The translations under genes were made by a program, and so were the position numbers. From Thermoproteota archaeon (lineage in GTDB: Archaea; Korarchaeota; Korarchaeia; Korarchaeales; Korarchaeaceae): a DNA stretch of 64,000 nt. The stretch lies in the NCBI GenBank assembly GCA_027491915.1, contig JAOZGC010000002.1, positions 443,344 through 507,343 on the forward strand, in the 5' to 3' direction. Under the pieces are notes generated by a model. The model was not told the origin of the DNA and made no database searches. It saw only the letters and a list, made by a program, of their open reading frames with translations. This document shows, piece by piece, positions 23,839 through 32,418 of the stretch; the first letter of the stretch is position 1; every line of letters begins with the position of its first letter.

Positions 23839-25620
23839 ATGAGGAAATATCTCGCCGTCATACTCTCCCTCGTCGCCGTGGCGGGGCTGTTCGGCGCGGT
23901 GTCCGGATCCCCCGCCCAGGCGGCCCCCCAGCCCCAGGAGGGACAGGAACTCGAGCTGGAGCTGATGGTCCTCAGCTGGGACGACTGGTCCGTCCACTGC
24001 GGCGAGGCCCTGGCCGACGAGCTGGGTCAGATAGGGATCAAGGTCGACCTGAACCCGCTGGACGACTCGGTCATGTATCCCAGGATAGACGCCAGGAACT
24101 ACTCCATGTTCGAGATGGCGCTGGGCTATGACGCCGTCCCGACCCACATGTTCTACAGGTTCCACTCCTCCCAGGACTTCGAGGGAGGATCCAACTACTG
24201 GAGCTACAGGAACCCCCAGTACGATCAGGTGATAGAGCAGGCCATGTCCGCCCCCAGCCTGGATCAGGCCAAGCAGTACATGTACCAGGCCCAGGAGATC
24301 CTGGTCGACGACCTGCCCTACATACCCCTCTTCCTGACCCAGGACGTGCACGCCTTCTACAAGGGTTGGGAGGGGGTCCACGCCATGCCCGGCGGGCCCA
24401 TAAATTCCTTCAACAAGCTCACGATAGTGGACCTGCATCACCCAGAGAAGGACACCTTCGTCATGGCCTACCCGAGCTTCCCGAGGTCCCTCAACCCGAT
24501 GCCCGCGACCGACGGCAGGTCCCTCTGGTACGTCCTCCTGGTCTACGACTCCCTGCTGGCCTACGACGACAACCTCAACCTCATACCCTGGATGGCCGAC
24601 AACTGGTCCGTCTCCGACAACGGCCAGACCATAACCTTCCACCTCAGGGACGGGCTCAAGTGGCACGACGGCCAGCCCGTGACCGCCGAGGACGTGGCCT
24701 TCACCTTCGAGTACGCCAAGCAGAACGAGGCCTACGGGAGCTTCTACGTGGACGTCACCACCTACCTGGACAGCGTCGAGACGCCCGACAACAGGACCGT
24801 CGTGGTCCACCTGACCAAGCCCTACGTCTTCGCCGCCAACGCCTTCGGCCTCGTCCCGATAGTGCCGAAGCACATCTGGGAGAGCGTCCCGAGCTGGGAC
24901 TGGCCGAGCTCCGACGCCCTCCAGTACGGCATAGGGAGCGGCCCGTTCAAGCTGGTCGACTTCGTGGAGGGGGACTACATAGAGCTGGAGAAGTTCGACG
25001 ACTACTGGCTCGAGGGGGCTCCCAAGGTCGATCACGTGACCATAAGGGTGATAGACTCCTCGGAGGCCAGGATCCTGGCCATAAAGAACGGGGAGGCCGA
25101 CACCCACAGGTACGAGCTGGAGCCGGCCTACATCGCTCAGCTGGAGAACGACCCCAACATAGACCTCTACAGGACCTCCACCATATGGGACTACGTGCTC
25201 GGCTTCAACCTCAACCAGTGGCCGATGAACGACAGCAGGTTCAGAGAGGCCATAGCCCTGGCCATAGACAGGGATGAGATAGTCCAGAGGGCGGCCCTGG
25301 GGGCCGGCTACGCCACCGACTCCTTCGTGCCCTCGGTCAACTTCGGGGATTGGGAGAACCCGAACGCCAAGCTCCCGTCCCGCGACCTCGACCGCGCCAG
25401 GCAGCTGCTGGCCGAGATGGGATTCAGGGACGTGGACAACGACGGGATCCTGGAGTACTCGCCGCCCGCCCCGACTCCGCCGCCCTCCGAGAACGTCACG
25501 CCCTCTCCGCCGCCTCCACCTCCGCCCCCGCAGGCCGGCGCCGACATGACGTGGCTCATAGCGGGCGTAGTGATCGTGATAATAGGGGTGGCGGCCGCCC
25601 TGATCCTCAAGAGGAGGTGA
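23839..25620 (+). CDS. Peptide-binding protein of ABC transporter (SBP family 5), circularly permuted
   Basis: 593 aa. Residues 1-29 are a signal peptide ending in AQA. Residues 38-202 (LMVLSWDDW...IGIKV...GGSNYWSY..P.YD..I) match what is normally the C-terminal lobe of family 5 binding proteins. Only then, from about 205 (DTFVMAYPSFPRSLNP), does the normal N-terminus begin, followed by FHLRDGLKWHDGQPVTAEDV, GSGPFKLVDF and LGFNLN. It ends at the place where the C-lobe should start (DVDNDGILEY), then a Pro-rich linker and a C-terminal membrane helix. It binds peptides outside the cell and delivers them to the permeases encoded next. Confidence 0.93.
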   Translation: MRKYLAVILSLVAVAGLFGAVSGSPAQAAPQPQEGQELELELMVLSWDDWSVHCGEALADELGQIGIKVDLNPLDDSVMYPRIDARNYSMFEMALGYDAVPTHMFYRFHSSQDFEGGSNYWSYRNPQYDQVIEQAMSAPSLDQAKQYMYQAQEILVDDLPYIPLFLTQDVHAFYKGWEGVHAMPGGPINSFNKLTIVDLHHPEKDTFVMAYPSFPRSLNPMPATDGRSLWYVLLVYDSLLAYDDNLNLIPWMADNWSVSDNGQTITFHLRDGLKWHDGQPVTAEDVAFTFEYAKQNEAYGSFYVDVTTYLDSVETPDNRTVVVHLTKPYVFAANAFGLVPIVPKHIWESVPSWDWPSSDALQYGIGSGPFKLVDFVEGDYIELEKFDDYWLEGAPKVDHVTIRVIDSSEARILAIKNGEADTHRYELEPAYIAQLENDPNIDLYRTSTIWDYVLGFNLNQWPMNDSRFREAIALAIDRDEIVQRAALGAGYATDSFVPSVNFGDWENPNAKLPSRDLDRARQLLAEMGFRDVDNDGILEYSPPAPTPPPSENVTPSPPPPPPPPQAGADMTWLIAGVVIVIIGVAAALILKRR

Positions 25621-25690: not shown

Positions 25691-26665
25691 ATGAGGGAGT
25701 ACGTTCTCAGGAGGGCCGCGTCCTCCCTGGTCACCTTCCTCCTGATAATAGTCCTGAACTTCTTCATATTCAGGATAATGCCCGGGGATCCGGCCAGGGC
25801 CGTCGTCGGGGACGTCAGGATGAAGCCCGAGATCAGGGAGATACTGGTCAGGAAGTTCGGCCTAGACAAGCCCATATGGGTCCAGTTCCTCTACTACCTG
25901 GACAGGCTGGCCCACGGCGACCTGGGCTACTCCTTCCAGTATCCGGGAACCCCGGTCACGGACCTGATCTTGGGCAGGAGGATGGTGAACACCTTCCTCC
26001 TGATGGGGACCTCAATAATCATATCCCTGGTGATAGGGATGGCCCTCGGCGTCGTGGCGGCCTGGAAGAGGGGGTCCAAGCTGGACGTCGGGATACTCAC
26101 CTTCTCCCTGGTGACCTACTCGATACCCACCTTCTGGATGGGCATAATGATAATACTCCTGCTCGGATTCTACGGGAAGCTCATACCCCTGGGGGGGACG
26201 GTGACCCCCGGGGTCGCCTCCGAGGGGCCCGTCCAGTACTGGCTCGACTACCTGCACCACATGATAGGCCCGACCATAACCCTCGTCCTCTCCTTCCTGG
26301 GCTACTACTTCCTCATCATGAGGAACACCCTGCTGGACGTCTTCACCGAGGACTACATGCTCACCGCCAGGGCCAAGGGACTGAGGGACAGGACCATCCT
26401 GTTCAAGCACGCCATGAGGAACGCCCTCCTGCCCATGATCTCGGTCATAGCCCTCGAGGTGATATACCTGTTCAGCGGGGCCACGGCCACGGAGACCGTG
26501 TTCTCCTGGCACGGCCTCGGGCTGCTGGTGTACGAGTCGGTCCTGAGGTCCGACCTGCCCGTCCTGCAGGGCCTCTTCATATTCATAGCCATCTCCGTGC
26601 TCGTGGCCAACCTGCTGGCCGACATAACTTACGCCCTGGTGGACCCGAGGATCAGGTACGGGTGA
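25691..26665 (+). CDS. dppB: Peptide ABC transporter permease, DppB type
   Basis: 324 aa with six hydrophobic helices. The opening REYVLRRAASSLVTFLLIIVL and IMPGDPA are hallmarks of DppB/OppB proteins. The EAA-type loop ARAKGLRDRTILFKHAMRNALLP, near residue 230, contacts the ATPase subunits. The first of four transport genes following the binding-protein gene; the next starts five bases after its stop. Moves peptides across the membrane. Confidence 0.94.
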   Translation: MREYVLRRAASSLVTFLLIIVLNFFIFRIMPGDPARAVVGDVRMKPEIREILVRKFGLDKPIWVQFLYYLDRLAHGDLGYSFQYPGTPVTDLILGRRMVNTFLLMGTSIIISLVIGMALGVVAAWKRGSKLDVGILTFSLVTYSIPTFWMGIMIILLLGFYGKLIPLGGTVTPGVASEGPVQYWLDYLHHMIGPTITLVLSFLGYYFLIMRNTLLDVFTEDYMLTARAKGLRDRTILFKHAMRNALLPMISVIALEVIYLFSGATATETVFSWHGLGLLVYESVLRSDLPVLQGLFIFIAISVLVANLLADITYALVDPRIRYG

Positions 26666-26669
26666 TGGC

Positions 26670-27551
26670 ATGTCCGGCCGCGGCGCCGTCAGGAGGAGGG
26701 TGCTGGTCAGGAGGCTGAGGAACTTCTGGTCCCTCTACTCCTCCAGCAGGCTGGGCGTGTTCGGCCTCGCAGTGATCCTCTTCTACACCGCGCTGGCCGC
26801 GTTAGCGCCGCTGCTGGCCCCCTACGATCCGGACGAGTTCGTCGGCAGGCCCCTCGACTCGCCGAGCTGGGAGCATCCCCTGGGCACCGATCAGATGGGG
26901 AGGGACCTGCTCAGCAGGCTGATAGTCGGGACCAGGGTGTCCCTGGTGGTTGGGCTGGCCGCCAGCGCCATGGCCGTGGTCATAGGGTCGGTGATAGGGC
27001 TGGTCTCGGGGTACTTCGGGGGGATCCTGGACACGGTCCTCATGAGGATAACGGACATCTTCATACAGCTGCCGACCCTCCCGCTGATGCTCATATTCGT
27101 GGCCATCCTGGGGAAGGGGATCTTCAACATAGTGCTGGTGATAGCCATCCTGGGCTGGACCGCCACGGCCAGGATGGTGAGGTCCCAGACCCTCTCCCTG
27201 AAGGAGAGGCCCTTCGTCGAGGCGGCCAGGGCCGTCGGGGCCGGGGACCTCCAGATACTGGCGGTCCACATAGCCCCCAACGTTGTCCCCCTGATCTTCG
27301 CCAACGCCACCATCTCGGTCGTCAACGCCATACTCTCCGAGTCCTTCCTGAGCTTCCTCGGGTTCGGCGATCCGAGGATGCCCAGCTGGGGCATGCTCCT
27401 CTACTACGCCAGGATGGCCGGCGCCACGGTGAACGGGTTCTGGTGGTTCATAGTTCCCCCGGGTGTGGCCATAATGATGCTGGCCCTGGGGTTCGCCTGC
27501 ATGAACTACAGCCTGGACCAGATACTGAACCCCAGGCTGAGGAAGAGGTAG
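26670..27551 (+). CDS. dppC: Peptide ABC transporter permease, DppC type
   Basis: 293 aa, six hydrophobic helices. APYDPDEFVGRPLDSPSWEHPLGTDQMGRDLLSR includes the GTDxxGRDxLSR motif typical of DppC/OppC. The loop EAARAVGAGDLQILAVHIAPN is the coupling EAA motif. LSFLGFGDPRMPSWG is another family block. It pairs with the DppB-type permease to form the channel. ATG lies four bases after the dppB stop, so translation is probably coupled. Confidence 0.94.
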   Translation: MSGRGAVRRRVLVRRLRNFWSLYSSSRLGVFGLAVILFYTALAALAPLLAPYDPDEFVGRPLDSPSWEHPLGTDQMGRDLLSRLIVGTRVSLVVGLAASAMAVVIGSVIGLVSGYFGGILDTVLMRITDIFIQLPTLPLMLIFVAILGKGIFNIVLVIAILGWTATARMVRSQTLSLKERPFVEAARAVGAGDLQILAVHIAPNVVPLIFANATISVVNAILSESFLSFLGFGDPRMPSWGMLLYYARMAGATVNGFWWFIVPPGVAIMMLALGFACMNYSLDQILNPRLRKR

Positions 27552-27555
27552 GTAG

Positions 27556-28530
27556 GTGAGTCCCTTGGGAGACGAGGTTCTCAGGGTCGAGGACCTGGCC
27601 GTCTACTACGAGACCATGAAGGGGACTGTCAGGGCCGTGGACGGGGTCTCCTTCTCGGTCAGGAGGGGGGAGATAGTCGGGCTGGCCGGGGAGTCGGGGA
27701 GCGGCAAGACCACCACCGCCATGGCCATAATCAGGCTGCTGCCGGAGAACGGGAGGATAGTGAGGGGGAGGATACTGCTCGGGGACCTGGACGTGGCCTC
27801 CCTCCCCGAGGAGGAGATGAGGAGGGTGAGGTGGAACAGGGTGTCCATGGTCTTCCAGGGAGCCATGAACGCCCTCAACCCGGTCCTGAGGGTCGGGGAG
27901 CAGATAGGGGAGGTCCTGGTCGAGAAGAAGGGTCTCTCGAAGAGGGAGGCCTGGGAGAGGGTGAAGGAGCTCTTCAGGCTGGTCGGGATAGACCCCTCCA
28001 GGGCGTGGGACTACCCCCACGAGTTCAGCGGCGGGATGAGGCAGAGGGCCATGATAGCCATGGCCATCGCCCTGAACCCGGACCTGGTGATAGCCGACGA
28101 GCCGGTCACCGCCCTGGACGTGGTGGTCCAGTCGCGCATCCTGGACCTCCTGAGGGACCTCAGGGACAAGTTGGGGATAAGCGTCCTGATGATAACCCAC
28201 GACCTATCGGTCATAGCGGAGACCTGCGACAGGACCGCCATAATGTACGCCGGGAAGATAGTGGAGTACGGGGACACGGAAGTCGTCTTCGCCAGGTCCC
28301 TCCACCCCTACACCAGGGCCCTGATAGCCGCCTTCCCCAGCATAACCGGGGAGAGGAGGAACTTCGAGCCGATAAGGGGGGACCCGCCCAACATGCTGGA
28401 GGTACCGCCCGGGTGCCCCTTCCACCCAAGGTGCCCGAGCAGGTTCGAGCCCTGCGACAGGAGGGAGCCGGAGCTGGTGGAGGCCGAGCCGGGACACTGG
28501 GTGGCGTGCCACCTGACGGGAGGAGGTTGA
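27556..28530 (+). CDS. dppD: Peptide ABC transporter ATPase, DppD type
   Basis: 324 aa from a GTG. Walker A GESGSGKTT, Q-loop MVFQGAM, signature FSGGMRQR, Walker B LVIADEPVTALD and the switch ITHDLS are complete. The C-terminal region CPFHPRCPSRFEPCDR matches the Cys-rich tail of oligopeptide-type ATPases, which in some members binds a cluster. It powers transport with the DppF-type partner encoded next. The signature is SGGM, as in DppD rather than SGGQ. Confidence 0.95.
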   Translation: MSPLGDEVLRVEDLAVYYETMKGTVRAVDGVSFSVRRGEIVGLAGESGSGKTTTAMAIIRLLPENGRIVRGRILLGDLDVASLPEEEMRRVRWNRVSMVFQGAMNALNPVLRVGEQIGEVLVEKKGLSKREAWERVKELFRLVGIDPSRAWDYPHEFSGGMRQRAMIAMAIALNPDLVIADEPVTALDVVVQSRILDLLRDLRDKLGISVLMITHDLSVIAETCDRTAIMYAGKIVEYGDTEVVFARSLHPYTRALIAAFPSITGERRNFEPIRGDPPNMLEVPPGCPFHPRCPSRFEPCDRREPELVEAEPGHWVACHLTGGG

Positions 28531-28532
28531 GC

Positions 28533-29528
28533 TTGGCGGAGAAGCTGCTGGAGGTCAGGGACCTCAGGGTCTGGTTCCCGGCCAGGACCGGCCTCCTGGC
28601 CGCCCTCAGGGGGGTTAAGAGGTGGGTCAAGGCCGTCGACGGGGTGAGCTTCGACGTCAAGAGGGGGGAGGTGGTGTGCCTGGTGGGCGAGTCTGGGAGC
28701 GGCAAGACCACCACCGCCAGGGCCGTGCTGAGGCTTATAGAGCCCACCGGGGGGGAGGTCCTGTTCGACGGGGTGGACGTCCTCTCGCTCCCCAAGGCGG
28801 AGCTGAAGAGGTGGAGGACCGAGGCCCAGCTGATATTCCAGGACCCCTACGAGTCCATAGATCCCAGGATGGTGGTGTACGACGTCGTGGCGGAGCCCCT
28901 GAGGGTGAACCGGCTGGCCGAGGGGGCAGACGACGAGTACGACAGGGTCGCCAGGGCCCTGGAGGACGTCAGGCTGGTCCCCCCGGAGGACTTCATGTCC
29001 AGGTTCCCCCACGAGCTGTCTGGGGGGCAGAGGCAGAGGGTGGCCATAGCCAGGGCCCTGATACTCAGGCCCAGGTTCCTGGTAGCGGACGAGCCGGTCA
29101 GCATGCTGGACGCCTCGATAAGGACCCAGATACTCACCCTGATGGAGGACCTGAGGAGGGAGTACGGGCTCACGTACCTCTACATAACCCACGACCTCGC
29201 CCAGGCCAGGTACACGGGGGACAGGATAGTGGTCATGTACCTGGGGAGGATAATGGAGGTGGGGCCCACCGAGGAGGTAATAAGGGATCCCCTGCACCCC
29301 TACACCAAGGTGCTCCTGTCCCACGTGCCAGTCCCGGATCCCAGGGAGGCCAGGAGGAGGGAGAAGATAGAGATACCCGGTGAGACTCCCAACCCCATAG
29401 ATCTTCCGCCGGGGTGCAGGTTCTGGCCCAGGTGCCCCTTCGCCAGGGAGGAGTGCAGGGAGAGGGAGCCGGAGCTGGTTGAGGTCAGTCCGGGGCGGTT
29501 CGTGGCATGCCACCTGGCAGGAGGGTGA
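28533..29528 (+). CDS. dppF: Peptide ABC transporter ATPase, DppF type
   Basis: 331 aa. Walker A GESGSGKTT, Q-loop LIFQDPYES, signature LSGGQRQR, Walker B FLVADEPVSMLD and ITHDLA are all present. The Cys-rich tail CRFWPRCPFAREECRE is typical of this family. The TTG at 28533 has a GGAGG site at a suitable distance; a TTG at 28527 overlapping the dppD stop is an alternative. The frame is open upstream inside dppD, but that part is not protein-like. Last transporter gene. Confidence 0.94.
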   Translation: MAEKLLEVRDLRVWFPARTGLLAALRGVKRWVKAVDGVSFDVKRGEVVCLVGESGSGKTTTARAVLRLIEPTGGEVLFDGVDVLSLPKAELKRWRTEAQLIFQDPYESIDPRMVVYDVVAEPLRVNRLAEGADDEYDRVARALEDVRLVPPEDFMSRFPHELSGGQRQRVAIARALILRPRFLVADEPVSMLDASIRTQILTLMEDLRREYGLTYLYITHDLAQARYTGDRIVVMYLGRIMEVGPTEEVIRDPLHPYTKVLLSHVPVPDPREARRREKIEIPGETPNPIDLPPGCRFWPRCPFAREECREREPELVEVSPGRFVACHLAGG

Positions 29529-29881
29529 CGGCGGCGTCGGCCGCCCTGTACGGGATCGGCGTCGGCCTCCTGATGGCCGGCACCCGATTCGGCGTCTTCC
29601 CCTCCCACCTGACCCTGTCCATCGGGGCGATCCTGACGGCGATCGCCTGCCGGGGGCGCGATCCCCGGGAGTCCGCCGAGAACCTGGTGATCCTGCTCGC
29701 GTCCGCCCTGGTATCCGAGGCCGCGGTCAACTGCGCCCCGGCCCTGGCCGTGGGAGACCGCGTCCTGGCCAACGCCATACTGCTCGTGGGGGTTGGGGAC
29801 GCCGTCGCGGGACAGCTTATCCTGATCCCGGTCCTGTCGACCGCGGCCGCCTTGGCCGCCCTGGCCTCGGGGTATAGGTAA
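29525..29881 (+). CDS. Small membrane protein of unknown function
   Basis: 118 aa from a GTG that shares four bases with the dppF stop; an ATG at 29507 would add six residues. Four hydrophobic helices (about residues 4-22, 33-42, 53-72 and 83-112) leave little soluble part. No motif recognised. The overlap suggests that it is translated with the transporter, although its Pro-poor, Ala/Leu-rich make-up gives no clue to function. Confidence 0.55.
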   Translation: MTAASAALYGIGVGLLMAGTRFGVFPSHLTLSIGAILTAIACRGRDPRESAENLVILLASALVSEAAVNCAPALAVGDRVLANAILLVGVGDAVAGQLILIPVLSTAAALAALASGYR

Positions 29882-29905: not shown

Positions 29906-31087
29906 ATGCGCAGCCCCAGCCCCGGGGAACTGGCCGAGCTCAAGGCGGCGGCCTTCGACGCAATAGACGAGGCCGCCGACGATGTTTGGGAACTGGCCCT
30001 GTACCTCCACGAGAATCCCGAGCTCGGGGGGAGGGAGAGGGCCTCGGTCGCTAAGATAACCTCCCTCCTGAGGTCCAGGGGTTTCTCCGTCGAGGTGGGG
30101 GTGGCCGGTATGGACACGGCCTTCGTGGCATCGGCCCCCGGATCATCGGGGAGGCCATCCCTGGCCTACCTGGCGGAGTACGACGCCCTGCCCGGGATCG
30201 GCCACGCCTGCGGTCACAACCTAATAGCCGCCTCCAGCGTGGCGGCCGCCCTGGGCGCGTCGTCAGCCCTCCCGTCCCTCGGCGGGTCCGTGGCCGTGGT
30301 GGGCACGCCCGGCGAGGAGAACATCGGGGGGAAGGTCATAATGGTCAGGGAGGGGGTCTTCTCAGGGTTCGACGCGGCCCTCATGGCCCACCCGGGGGAC
30401 AGGTGGTCGCTGGACCAGAGGCTCCTGGCCCTCACCGCCCTGGAGTTCACCTTCAGGGGGAGGTCCTCCCACGCCGCCGCGGCCCCGGAGGAGGGGAGGG
30501 ACGCCCTGGACGCGGTCGTCCTATTCATAAACGGGATAAACGCCCTGAGGGAGCACGTGAAGCCGGACGTCCGGATGCACGGGATTGTGGCGGAGGGGGG
30601 CAGGGCTCCGAACGTCGTCCCCGACCGGACCGTCTACAGGATGTACGTCAGGGCCTCCACCAGGGAGAGGGTAGACGAGGTGGTCTCCAGGGTCCTGGAC
30701 GCCGCCAGGGGGGCGGCCCTCATGACCGGGTGCGAGGTCGAGTGGAGGGAGTACGAGCTTCCCCTGGATGAGATGAGGGTGAGCGAGACCCTGATTCGGC
30801 TGTTCGAGTCCAACGCCGCCCTCCTGGGGGTGAAGGAGTTCAAGGCTCACGAGGGCCTCGGCTCCAGCGACGTGGGCAATGTCAGCAGGGTGATCCCGAC
30901 CATACAGCCCACCTTCAAGATAGTCCGTGAGGGGGTCCCGCCCCACACGGAGGAGTTCGCCAGGGCGGCCGCCTCCGAGGAGGCCCGGGAGGCTACCCTG
31001 AAGGTGGCCAAGATCCTGGCCGCCACCGGGGTGGACCTACTCGCCGACCCGGGCCTGTTGGAGAGGGCCAGATCCGAGATAGCGTGA
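29906..31087 (+). CDS. M20-family amidohydrolase (AbgB/peptidase M20D-like)
   Basis: 393 aa. YLHENPELGG opens the family. YLAEYDALPGIGHACGHN carries the first metal Asp/His block, GTPGEENIGGK contains the catalytic Glu and metal Glu, and MAHPGD and HTEEFARAA near the end give the remaining His residues. Such enzymes hydrolyse N-acyl or aminobenzoyl-glutamate-type amides and small peptides. It follows the peptide transporter, so it may process imported peptides. A possible TATA-like GTAATATCC lies at about 29877-29885. Confidence 0.9.
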   Translation: MRSPSPGELAELKAAAFDAIDEAADDVWELALYLHENPELGGRERASVAKITSLLRSRGFSVEVGVAGMDTAFVASAPGSSGRPSLAYLAEYDALPGIGHACGHNLIAASSVAAALGASSALPSLGGSVAVVGTPGEENIGGKVIMVREGVFSGFDAALMAHPGDRWSLDQRLLALTALEFTFRGRSSHAAAAPEEGRDALDAVVLFINGINALREHVKPDVRMHGIVAEGGRAPNVVPDRTVYRMYVRASTRERVDEVVSRVLDAARGAALMTGCEVEWREYELPLDEMRVSETLIRLFESNAALLGVKEFKAHEGLGSSDVGNVSRVIPTIQPTFKIVREGVPPHTEEFARAAASEEAREATLKVAKILAATGVDLLADPGLLERARSEIA

Positions 31088-31115: not shown

Positions 31116-31499
31116 CTATTCGGTCTTTCCCGCGTCGGATCGGCGGCCGACCGCCCCCAGCCTGAGCCCGTACTCCTTCAACCTAGCGAAGTGCCTCTCG
31201 TTACCGGTGAGAAGGTCCATCCCCTTGGAGATGGCCGTGGCCCCTATTATCAGGTCGGCGTCCCCCAATAGCTCTCCCCTCTCCCTCAGCCGATCGTATA
31301 GCCTGCAGTACTCGATGATCACCTCGTTGTCCAGGCCGATCACCTCGAAGGCCTCCTCCAGGAGTTCCTTGGCCCTCTCCCTGTCCCCCTCCGGCATTCC
31401 CCTGAGGAACTCGAGGACCGTCAGCACGGATACGGCGTCCCCCCTCATCTCCCCCCTCCTGAGGGAGTCTATCAGGACGTCAGTGTCCACGAGCTCCAA
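31116..31499 (-). CDS. vapC: VapC-type PIN-domain toxin
   Basis: 127 aa. The PIN ribonuclease acidic residues are visible: VDTDVLID near 4-11, VLTVLEFLRG with a Glu near 31, and GDADLIIGATA near 78-88. VapC toxins cut tRNA or rRNA when not bound by their antitoxin. The start overlaps the 3' end of the upstream vapB by 20 bp, which is the usual arrangement. Confidence 0.9.
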   Translation of the reverse strand: MELVDTDVLIDSLRRGEMRGDAVSVLTVLEFLRGMPEGDRERAKELLEEAFEVIGLDNEVIIEYCRLYDRLRERGELLGDADLIIGATAISKGMDLLTGNERHFARLKEYGLRLGAVGRRSDAGKTE

Positions 31500-31765: not shown

Positions 31766-32188
31766 TCACGGCTCGAAGTCCCCTACGCGCCTGACCCACT
31801 CGGTTCCGACCTTCCTCACGAGGGTCTCGTCGGCCGTGTACAGCGGGGCCCCCGAGAGCTCGGAGAGCGCCGCGTAGGACGCGTCGTAGACGGTTATCCC
31901 CTTCCTCATGGCCAGCTCCACAGTTCTGCGGGCCAGATCGCCGGACAGGGGGTGGAGCGTCAGTTGGAAGTCGTCCAGCGTCTCTGCGATCTCCTTCAGT
32001 TCCTCCTCCCCGAACGCGCCCGAGTACTTCAGGGCGTTCAGAACCTCGTAGGGCAATATGTCCGGCGCCTCCAGGTCCAGGGCGCCAGAGGAGTAGGCGT
32101 CCCTCAGCAGCCTGGCCTCGGCCGAGTCATCCTCCTCCACGAACCACTTCACCACGACCGAGGCGTCTACTACCGCCTTTCCCTCCAT
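31766..32188 (-). CDS. vapC: VapC-type PIN-domain toxin
   Basis: 140 aa from the ATG at 32188; an in-frame ATG at 32215 would add nine residues. VVDASVVVKWF, APDILPYEVLNAL and VYDASYAALSE hold the three acidic blocks of the PIN fold, and LYTADETL the fourth. It overlaps the antitoxin gene by 19 bp. The second of two VapBC pairs side by side on this strand; they are different in sequence, so not a recent duplication. Confidence 0.9.
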   Translation of the reverse strand: MEGKAVVDASVVVKWFVEEDDSAEARLLRDAYSSGALDLEAPDILPYEVLNALKYSGAFGEEELKEIAETLDDFQLTLHPLSGDLARRTVELAMRKGITVYDASYAALSELSGAPLYTADETLVRKVGTEWVRRVGDFEP

Positions 32189-32418
32189 CTCCTTATCTCC
32201 TCCACGGAGCTCCATCCCTCAACCTTTCTGGAGAGCTTCTCCGACCTCAGGGCTGCCCTCTTTATCCTGAGCGCGTCTTTCTCGCGCCTCCTTGCCTCCT
32301 CCCTCTCGATGACCTCTACGATCGCCCTCCTGACCACCTCGCTCCAGTTCACGTGCCTCAGCTCATCCATCTTCCTCTTTATCCTCCTGTCAATCCTGAA
32401 GCTCACGACCACGGACAT
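32170..32418 (-). CDS. vapB: VapB-type antitoxin (ribbon-helix-helix)
   Basis: 82 aa. The N-terminus SVVVSFRIDRRIKRKMDELRHVNWSE is an RHH strand and helix with the usual Val/Ile alternation; the second half is a highly charged helix that would wrap the toxin. TATA-like sequence precedes it by about 26 bp. Confidence 0.88.
   Translation of the reverse strand: MSVVVSFRIDRRIKRKMDELRHVNWSEVVRRAIVEVIEREEARRREKDALRIKRAALRSEKLSRKVEGWSSVEEIRRWRERR

Follow-up and report, generated by a model that had tools for sequence, protein, structure and literature searches.

The open reading frame at positions 23839-25620 (+) of the window, a stretch of 64,000 nucleotides from an archaeon of the Korarchaeota, raises the question of how the substrate-binding protein of an ABC importer can carry the parts of its family in what appears to be the wrong order. 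The frame is intact and encodes 593 amino acids. Its product belongs to SBP_bac_5 (PF00496), with a Pfam score of 294.5 bits against a cut-off of 32.4, although the match is split over two stretches. The chain begins with a signal peptide (residues 1-29, 23839..23925, +; MRKYLAVILSLVAVAGLFGAVSGSPAQAA), followed by the portion with which family-5 proteins normally end (residues 38-202, 23950..24444, +). This portion corresponds to columns 318-469 of a canonical profile of 477 columns and to 365-494 of 4pfu, and comprises the remainder of the C-lobe and the return to domain I. The original C- and N-termini are linked by a connector (residues 186-205, 24394..24453, +; GPINSFNKLTIVDLHHPEKD) that lies between the two profile matches and is confidently modelled. 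The canonical start portion comes only then (residues 206-541, 24454..25461, +; profile columns 2-320, with Pfam SBP_bac_5 matched at residues 248-542), and terminates in the loop DVDNDGILEYS, at which the ring is opened. A Pro-rich linker (PPAPTPPPSENVTPSPPPPPPPPQAG) and a C-terminal membrane anchor (TWLIAGVVIVIIGVAAALILKRR) complete the chain (residues 542-593, 25462..25620, +). The N-termini of three homologues (L083, L143, and L151) are likewise signal-like, and in L083 the linker and anchor are arranged as in the window protein. A preliminary description of the locus had recognized this layout from the sequence, with the usual protein end directly behind the signal peptide, the usual N-terminal part beginning at about residue 205, and the linker and anchor at the end of the chain, and each of these assignments holds. 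By ancestry and content the protein is a member of family 5 (cluster C), and it is a topological variant of that family in which the canonical N-lobe-first order is absent.

The rotated order is apparent against single structures and against profiles. In phmmer searches of the PDB, residues 233-541 align with 36-353 of 4pfu (Thermotoga TM1226) while residues 44-166 align with 365-494 of the same chain, and the swap is also seen against AppA (1xoc) and Lmo0135 (5isu). A profile of canonical relatives (n = 41) places residues 43-204 at columns 363-514 and residues 221-550 at columns 43-365. The preliminary description had called for an alignment that allows permutation, and a doubled profile serves this purpose: an alignment of 41 canonical relatives was cut to the mature domain (477 columns) and concatenated with itself, an arrangement that brings no gain to a canonical protein and renders a permuted one contiguous. 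The window protein is contiguous at 318-797 of the 2 x 477 columns, one full circle, and scores 435.3 bits, 111 more than the 324.2 bits of its best linear match, whereas the gain is at most 8 bits for 113 other family-5 open reading frames. Every part is thus present once, with none absent or duplicated, as had been supposed from the length of the protein. A linear alignment of the whole protein to standard members was looked for and not found. A profile search of contigs returned mostly canonical bacterial relatives, and the order of the window protein was present at none of those loci; match ranges such as 52-531 in that search seem contiguous because two canonical-order pieces were merged. 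The window protein is a complete, circularly permuted family-5 binding protein, with all parts present once each, in rotated order, and of shared descent.

Prediction of the fold agrees with this assignment. AlphaFold2 models residues 36-545 as one compact protein and not as two incomplete domains (mean pLDDT 94.0, pTM 0.90), values that may be inflated by the unlinked canonical fragments that were aligned together with permuted homologues, a few fragment tails still being misplaced in the alignment used. The top 50 Foldseek matches in the PDB are family-5 binding proteins (among them 4pfu, NikZ, AppA, and DppA), each with about 310-400 aligned columns and a TM score of at most 0.58; partial alignments of this kind are expected of a rotated chain because the search keeps chain order. 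The chain order of the window protein was absent from the solved structures found by Foldseek in the PDB, which suggests that no solved chain has it. As modelled, the protein most likely adopts the two-lobed clamshell usual for the family.

Homologues with the same order were to be sought in related archaea, and they exist there and in a second archaeal phylum. Among 29 genomes of the phylum there are exactly four full-length matches to the permuted alignment, namely the window protein, a protein in G017, and two in G002; about 75 further matches in these genomes cover the canonical N-part only. The G017 homologue is full length, 51% identical to the window protein, and shares its order, cut, and operon. 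In the second phylum the same cut is found in G191, G405, G434 (twice), G471, G475, G476, G477, G493, and G495. Thirteen same-cut proteins from the two phyla, the window protein and 12 others, all archaeal, gain 53-112 bits with the doubled profile and thereby pass that test. Three relatives each carry one in-frame stop, TAG or TGA (G209 contig 3, 80439-81461; G493 contig 284, 7111-8868; G475 contig 82, 6051-7823), and these stops represent either sequencing errors or decaying genes.

In nearly all same-cut proteins the N-part terminates in a loop of the D-x-D-x-D-G type (DVDNDGILEY in the window protein), L084 and L085 being shorter at this point, and, once past the signal peptide, the chain begins with the strand that succeeds this loop in canonical proteins. 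Residue 530 of the window protein corresponds to about position 341 of DppA (phmmer against the PDB). The C-lobe of DppA is domain III, which we take to extend from about 261 to 478, and since position 341 falls within these limits the cut lies inside the C-lobe. The preliminary description is to be corrected here, as it had the protein stop at the usual junction to the C-lobe. Judged by this correspondence, the new termini would lie in a C-lobe loop, with the first 90 or so C-lobe residues remaining joined to the N-lobe part. With the cut so placed, C-anchored members would have their linker and anchor exit from the C-lobe and not from domain I.

The gene stands at the head of an apparent peptide-transport operon. 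Downstream of the binding protein, which by sequence carries both a secretion signal and an anchor, are an OppB-type permease (25691..26665, +; Pfam BPD_transp_1 and BPD_transp_1_N), an OppC-type permease (26670..27551, +; BPD_transp_1 and OppC_N), and two ATPases with ABC_tran and oligo_HPY matches, of the OppD type (27556..28530, +) and the OppF type (28533..29528, +, start approximate). These are followed by a gene for an M20 family peptidase/amidohydrolase (29906..31087, +; Peptidase_M20 and M20_dimer), which possibly acts on imported peptides. The window OppB is 69% identical to the OppB adjoining the permuted G017 homologue, and the gene order SBP-B-C-D-F recurs in G017 and in both permuted and canonical loci of family f42. 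Between oppF and the M20 gene lies a 124-amino-acid open reading frame (29507-29881, +) that is hydrophobic by eye and has no Pfam match. Further along, on the opposite strand, two PIN-domain-like open reading frames and a short antitoxin-like one, also recognized by eye (31116-31499, 31766-32215, and 32170-32418, all -), possibly form VapBC pairs.

Three explanations would deprive the rotated order of biological meaning or of a single ancestor. A misjoin of neighboring binding-protein genes during assembly could swap the halves of tandem paralogues, and the genome is a draft in four contigs; nevertheless, the same order, cut, and operon occur beside 51% identity in G017, eleven more proteins share the cut, the genome holds no second intact copy, and other rotations are found in single-contig genomes of the Thermococcaceae type, so that the chance of such an artifact is negligible. 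The protein might instead consist of two incomplete and non-functional domains, being either a pseudogene in decay or a scaffold that does not bind. The intact full circle, the single fold predicted with confidence, and an intact signal and anchor together with an entire Opp operon, all conserved in G017, speak against this, and it is regarded as highly improbable. A hybrid, in which parts of different binding-protein genes were joined in the wrong order by domain shuffling, finds a possible source in the many family-5 paralogues of Korarchaeota-type genomes. Trees bear directly on this proposal, and they were built for the N-part and the C-part separately on alignments rotated back to canonical order. 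In both, the window, G017, G191, and G405 proteins join the same six canonical f42 proteins (SH-aLRT 99 each), a grouping that the full tree retains (100/99), and another permuted protein, L213, pairs with the canonical L099 in the full tree (100/99), the N-part tree (95), and the C-part tree (94). Because the part trees are congruent, both parts derive from one gene, which makes the change a permutation; a hybrid is very unlikely. The central claim of the preliminary description, that of circular permutation, is therefore upheld by order, completeness, a single predicted fold, same-order homologues, and congruent part trees together.

Permuted and canonical proteins may be close relatives. 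After rotation, the permuted proteins of G191 and G405 are 57-61% identical to canonical proteins of G209, G409, G415, G417, and G418, and blastp between permuted proteins and canonical sisters gives two HSPs in swapped order, with 60% and 48% identity. All same-cut proteins could still descend from one ancient permutation, or from one ancient tandem fusion resolved either way, since a lasting fused tandem could give rise to both orders, and a fusion of this kind exists in the related group of proteins resembling the OppA of T. kodakarensis (TkOppA). On the tree with 14 permuted rows, however, seven order changes are needed, at least four of them forced by well-supported branches, a count that rests on deep trees with some long branches. 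A single clade of permuted proteins is rejected (AU p 2.5e-28 with four and 9.4e-5 with six), and L084/L085, L212, and L213 fall outside the main same-cut clade, the last of these being firmly placed beside a canonical protein. Gains look the same as reversions, within the main clade as elsewhere, which leaves a common origin some room; it is nonetheless considered rather unlikely.

Rotation may also have been selected, in that transfer of the anchor, together with the signal peptide, to the C-lobe from its place in domain I could better present the binding cleft or the docking face to the permease or through the S-layer. The predicted exit of the linker from the C-lobe in C-anchored members fits this proposal, as does recurrence at the same site, and the TpMglB-2-like proteins, the only natural permuted family described among binding proteins, are also mostly tethered (PMC4990184). 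Against it, the canonical sisters have the same kind of C-terminal anchor and stand beside closely related transporters: OppB of the permuted G191/G405 loci is 66-73% identical to OppB of the canonical G209/G415/G417 loci, and OppC 68-74%. With such closely similar permeases beside both orders, the transporters presumably accept either, so that either anchor position seems workable; judged by these comparisons, the loci argue against a strong need for rotation. The hydrophobic anchor of the permuted L213 is N-terminal, and the TkOppA-like group has several different cut sites. Adaptation by this route thus appears doubtful, and the advantage suggested in the preliminary description, relief from hindrance of binding by the anchor, is not specifically favored.

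Rotation is not limited to the cut of the window protein. Just one other family-5 protein was found in the same genome (about 880 amino acids; L052, 6958-9597; G000 contig 2, about 72957-75596), and it aligns to T. kodakarensis OppA (7fi3) in three pieces, with residues 28-322 at 326-612, 323-383 at 661-720, and 387-695 at 3-302. On this alignment it too is permuted, at a point different from that of the window protein. Its AlphaFold2 model is confident (pLDDT 91.4, pTM 0.89), and Foldseek aligns only 409 columns of it to 7fi3. Its locus has Opp-type permease and ATPase genes of its own downstream, and an Ig-like stretch, a linker, and an anchor lie C-terminal of the binding part. Proteins that align to it without a change of order are spread widely among archaea and occur, for example, in several further Korarchaeota-type genomes and in families f8, f10, f28, f65, and others. 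A second doubled profile, of 715 columns, was built from canonical proteins of family f10 (Thermococcaceae-type). With this profile, the TkOppA-like proteins (L175-L187, L191, and L193) display four rotations, the canonical one and others that start at column 252 (gains of 187-204 bits), at about 300-330 (162-276 bits), and at 611 (77-79 bits). In addition, a 2085-amino-acid open reading frame in a single-contig genome (L188, 379-6633; G170 contig 1) comprises two rotated units in head-to-tail order with a PKD-like stretch between them. This fusion resembles the kind of intermediate expected if permutation passes through tandem duplication; it is the only fused tandem seen, and it belongs to the TkOppA-like group, with units already rotated, and not to the type of the window protein.

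Taken as a whole, the window gene very probably encodes a secreted, anchored, circularly permuted binding protein of the Opp/Dpp type, whose origin was probably an in-frame tandem duplication in which the copies became fused. The short connector would have bridged the canonical N- and C-termini, which are neighbors in domain I, and new termini would have opened in the D-x-D-x-D-G loop of the C-lobe, so that both signal peptide and anchor would be attached to that lobe. Loss of the outer halves would have followed the fusion, and the same route was probably taken repeatedly among archaeal family-5 proteins, at several cut points. The protein would presumably bind peptide-like substrates and pass them to the adjacent OppBCDF. 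More broadly, archaeal family 5 is likely to be topologically unstable: the ring is kept and its opening shifts repeatedly, with three or four cut sites, at the least, in addition to the canonical one and several order changes at one preferred loop, by way of fused tandems and with related transporters accepting different rotations.

Canonical members such as DppA, OppA, AppA, NikA, Thermotoga TM1223 and TM1226, and T. kodakarensis OppA (7fi3) share with the window protein the sequence of both parts, the predicted fold, the place before oppBCDF, and the signal peptide and anchor; they differ in that their termini are not joined by a connector and do not lie in the C-lobe. Swaposins and DNA methyltransferases are known examples of natural circular permutation through tandem duplication, a fused tandem being the intermediate. 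The proposed route is the same; in archaeal family 5, unlike these, order varies among close relatives and one family has several cut points. The nearest precedent among ABC importers is TpMglB-2 (Tp0684) of Treponema pallidum, a naturally permuted, membrane-tethered binding protein with a crystal structure, which binds glucose and whose authors likewise raised tethering (PMC4990184). It resembles the window protein in its natural permutation, its ABC importer, and its membrane tether, but is bacterial, belongs to the type Ic (cluster Bc) sugar class, and is cut at an unrelated site. Sequence conservation is low in its permuted segment, whereas both parts of the window protein align clearly and canonical sisters of permuted relatives are 57-61% identical. 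Placement of the window protein itself in type Ic (cluster Bc), in which N-lobe strands are moved to the C-terminus, was considered and ruled out, the matches being to family 5 (cluster C). Permuted halves have also been studied for a Thermotoga ribose-binding protein, in connection with lobe permutation in fold evolution (PMC9815098); that study concerns crystal structures of type I halves and not a natural, rotated, full-length family-5 protein. Searches of the open-access literature found no description of permuted family-5 proteins or of recurrent rotation, and yielded engineered examples besides the type I case; one paper naming both SBP_bac_5 and circular permutations proved unrelated on inspection. 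The preliminary description, which knew of no account of such a protein, accordingly stands for family 5 within that literature, and is to be corrected for ABC binding proteins in general, given TpMglB-2 (PMC4990184).

If instability of this kind is real, archaeal family 5 would offer a natural example, of a rare kind, in which circular permutation is frequent and recurrent among close relatives. Most natural circular permutations are old, isolated events, and how they came about is for this reason difficult to trace. In archaeal family 5, rotated and canonical forms of one protein differ by only about 40% of residues and adjoin closely related transporters, and there are several cut sites and one fused tandem, so that the route of permutation and its effect on fitness become directly testable. 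Permuted proteins stay hidden, as domain models call SBP_bac_5 in any order and order-keeping structure searches align only a part. Some further candidates have come to light. Three open reading frames of 687-795 amino acids (L114, 1727-4111, -; L146, 2780-4840, +; L113, 1960-4212, -) have the C-lobe end at the front and a cut inside the C-lobe, the evidence being weaker in that the moved piece scores just 15-28 bits. Two bacterial open reading frames of Anaerolineales HSG25 (L044, 124-2994 and 3487-7497) have LivJ-like domains, recognized by eye, in front of a family-5 protein whose point of rotation differs again, an arrangement that may reflect repeat-driven misassembly.
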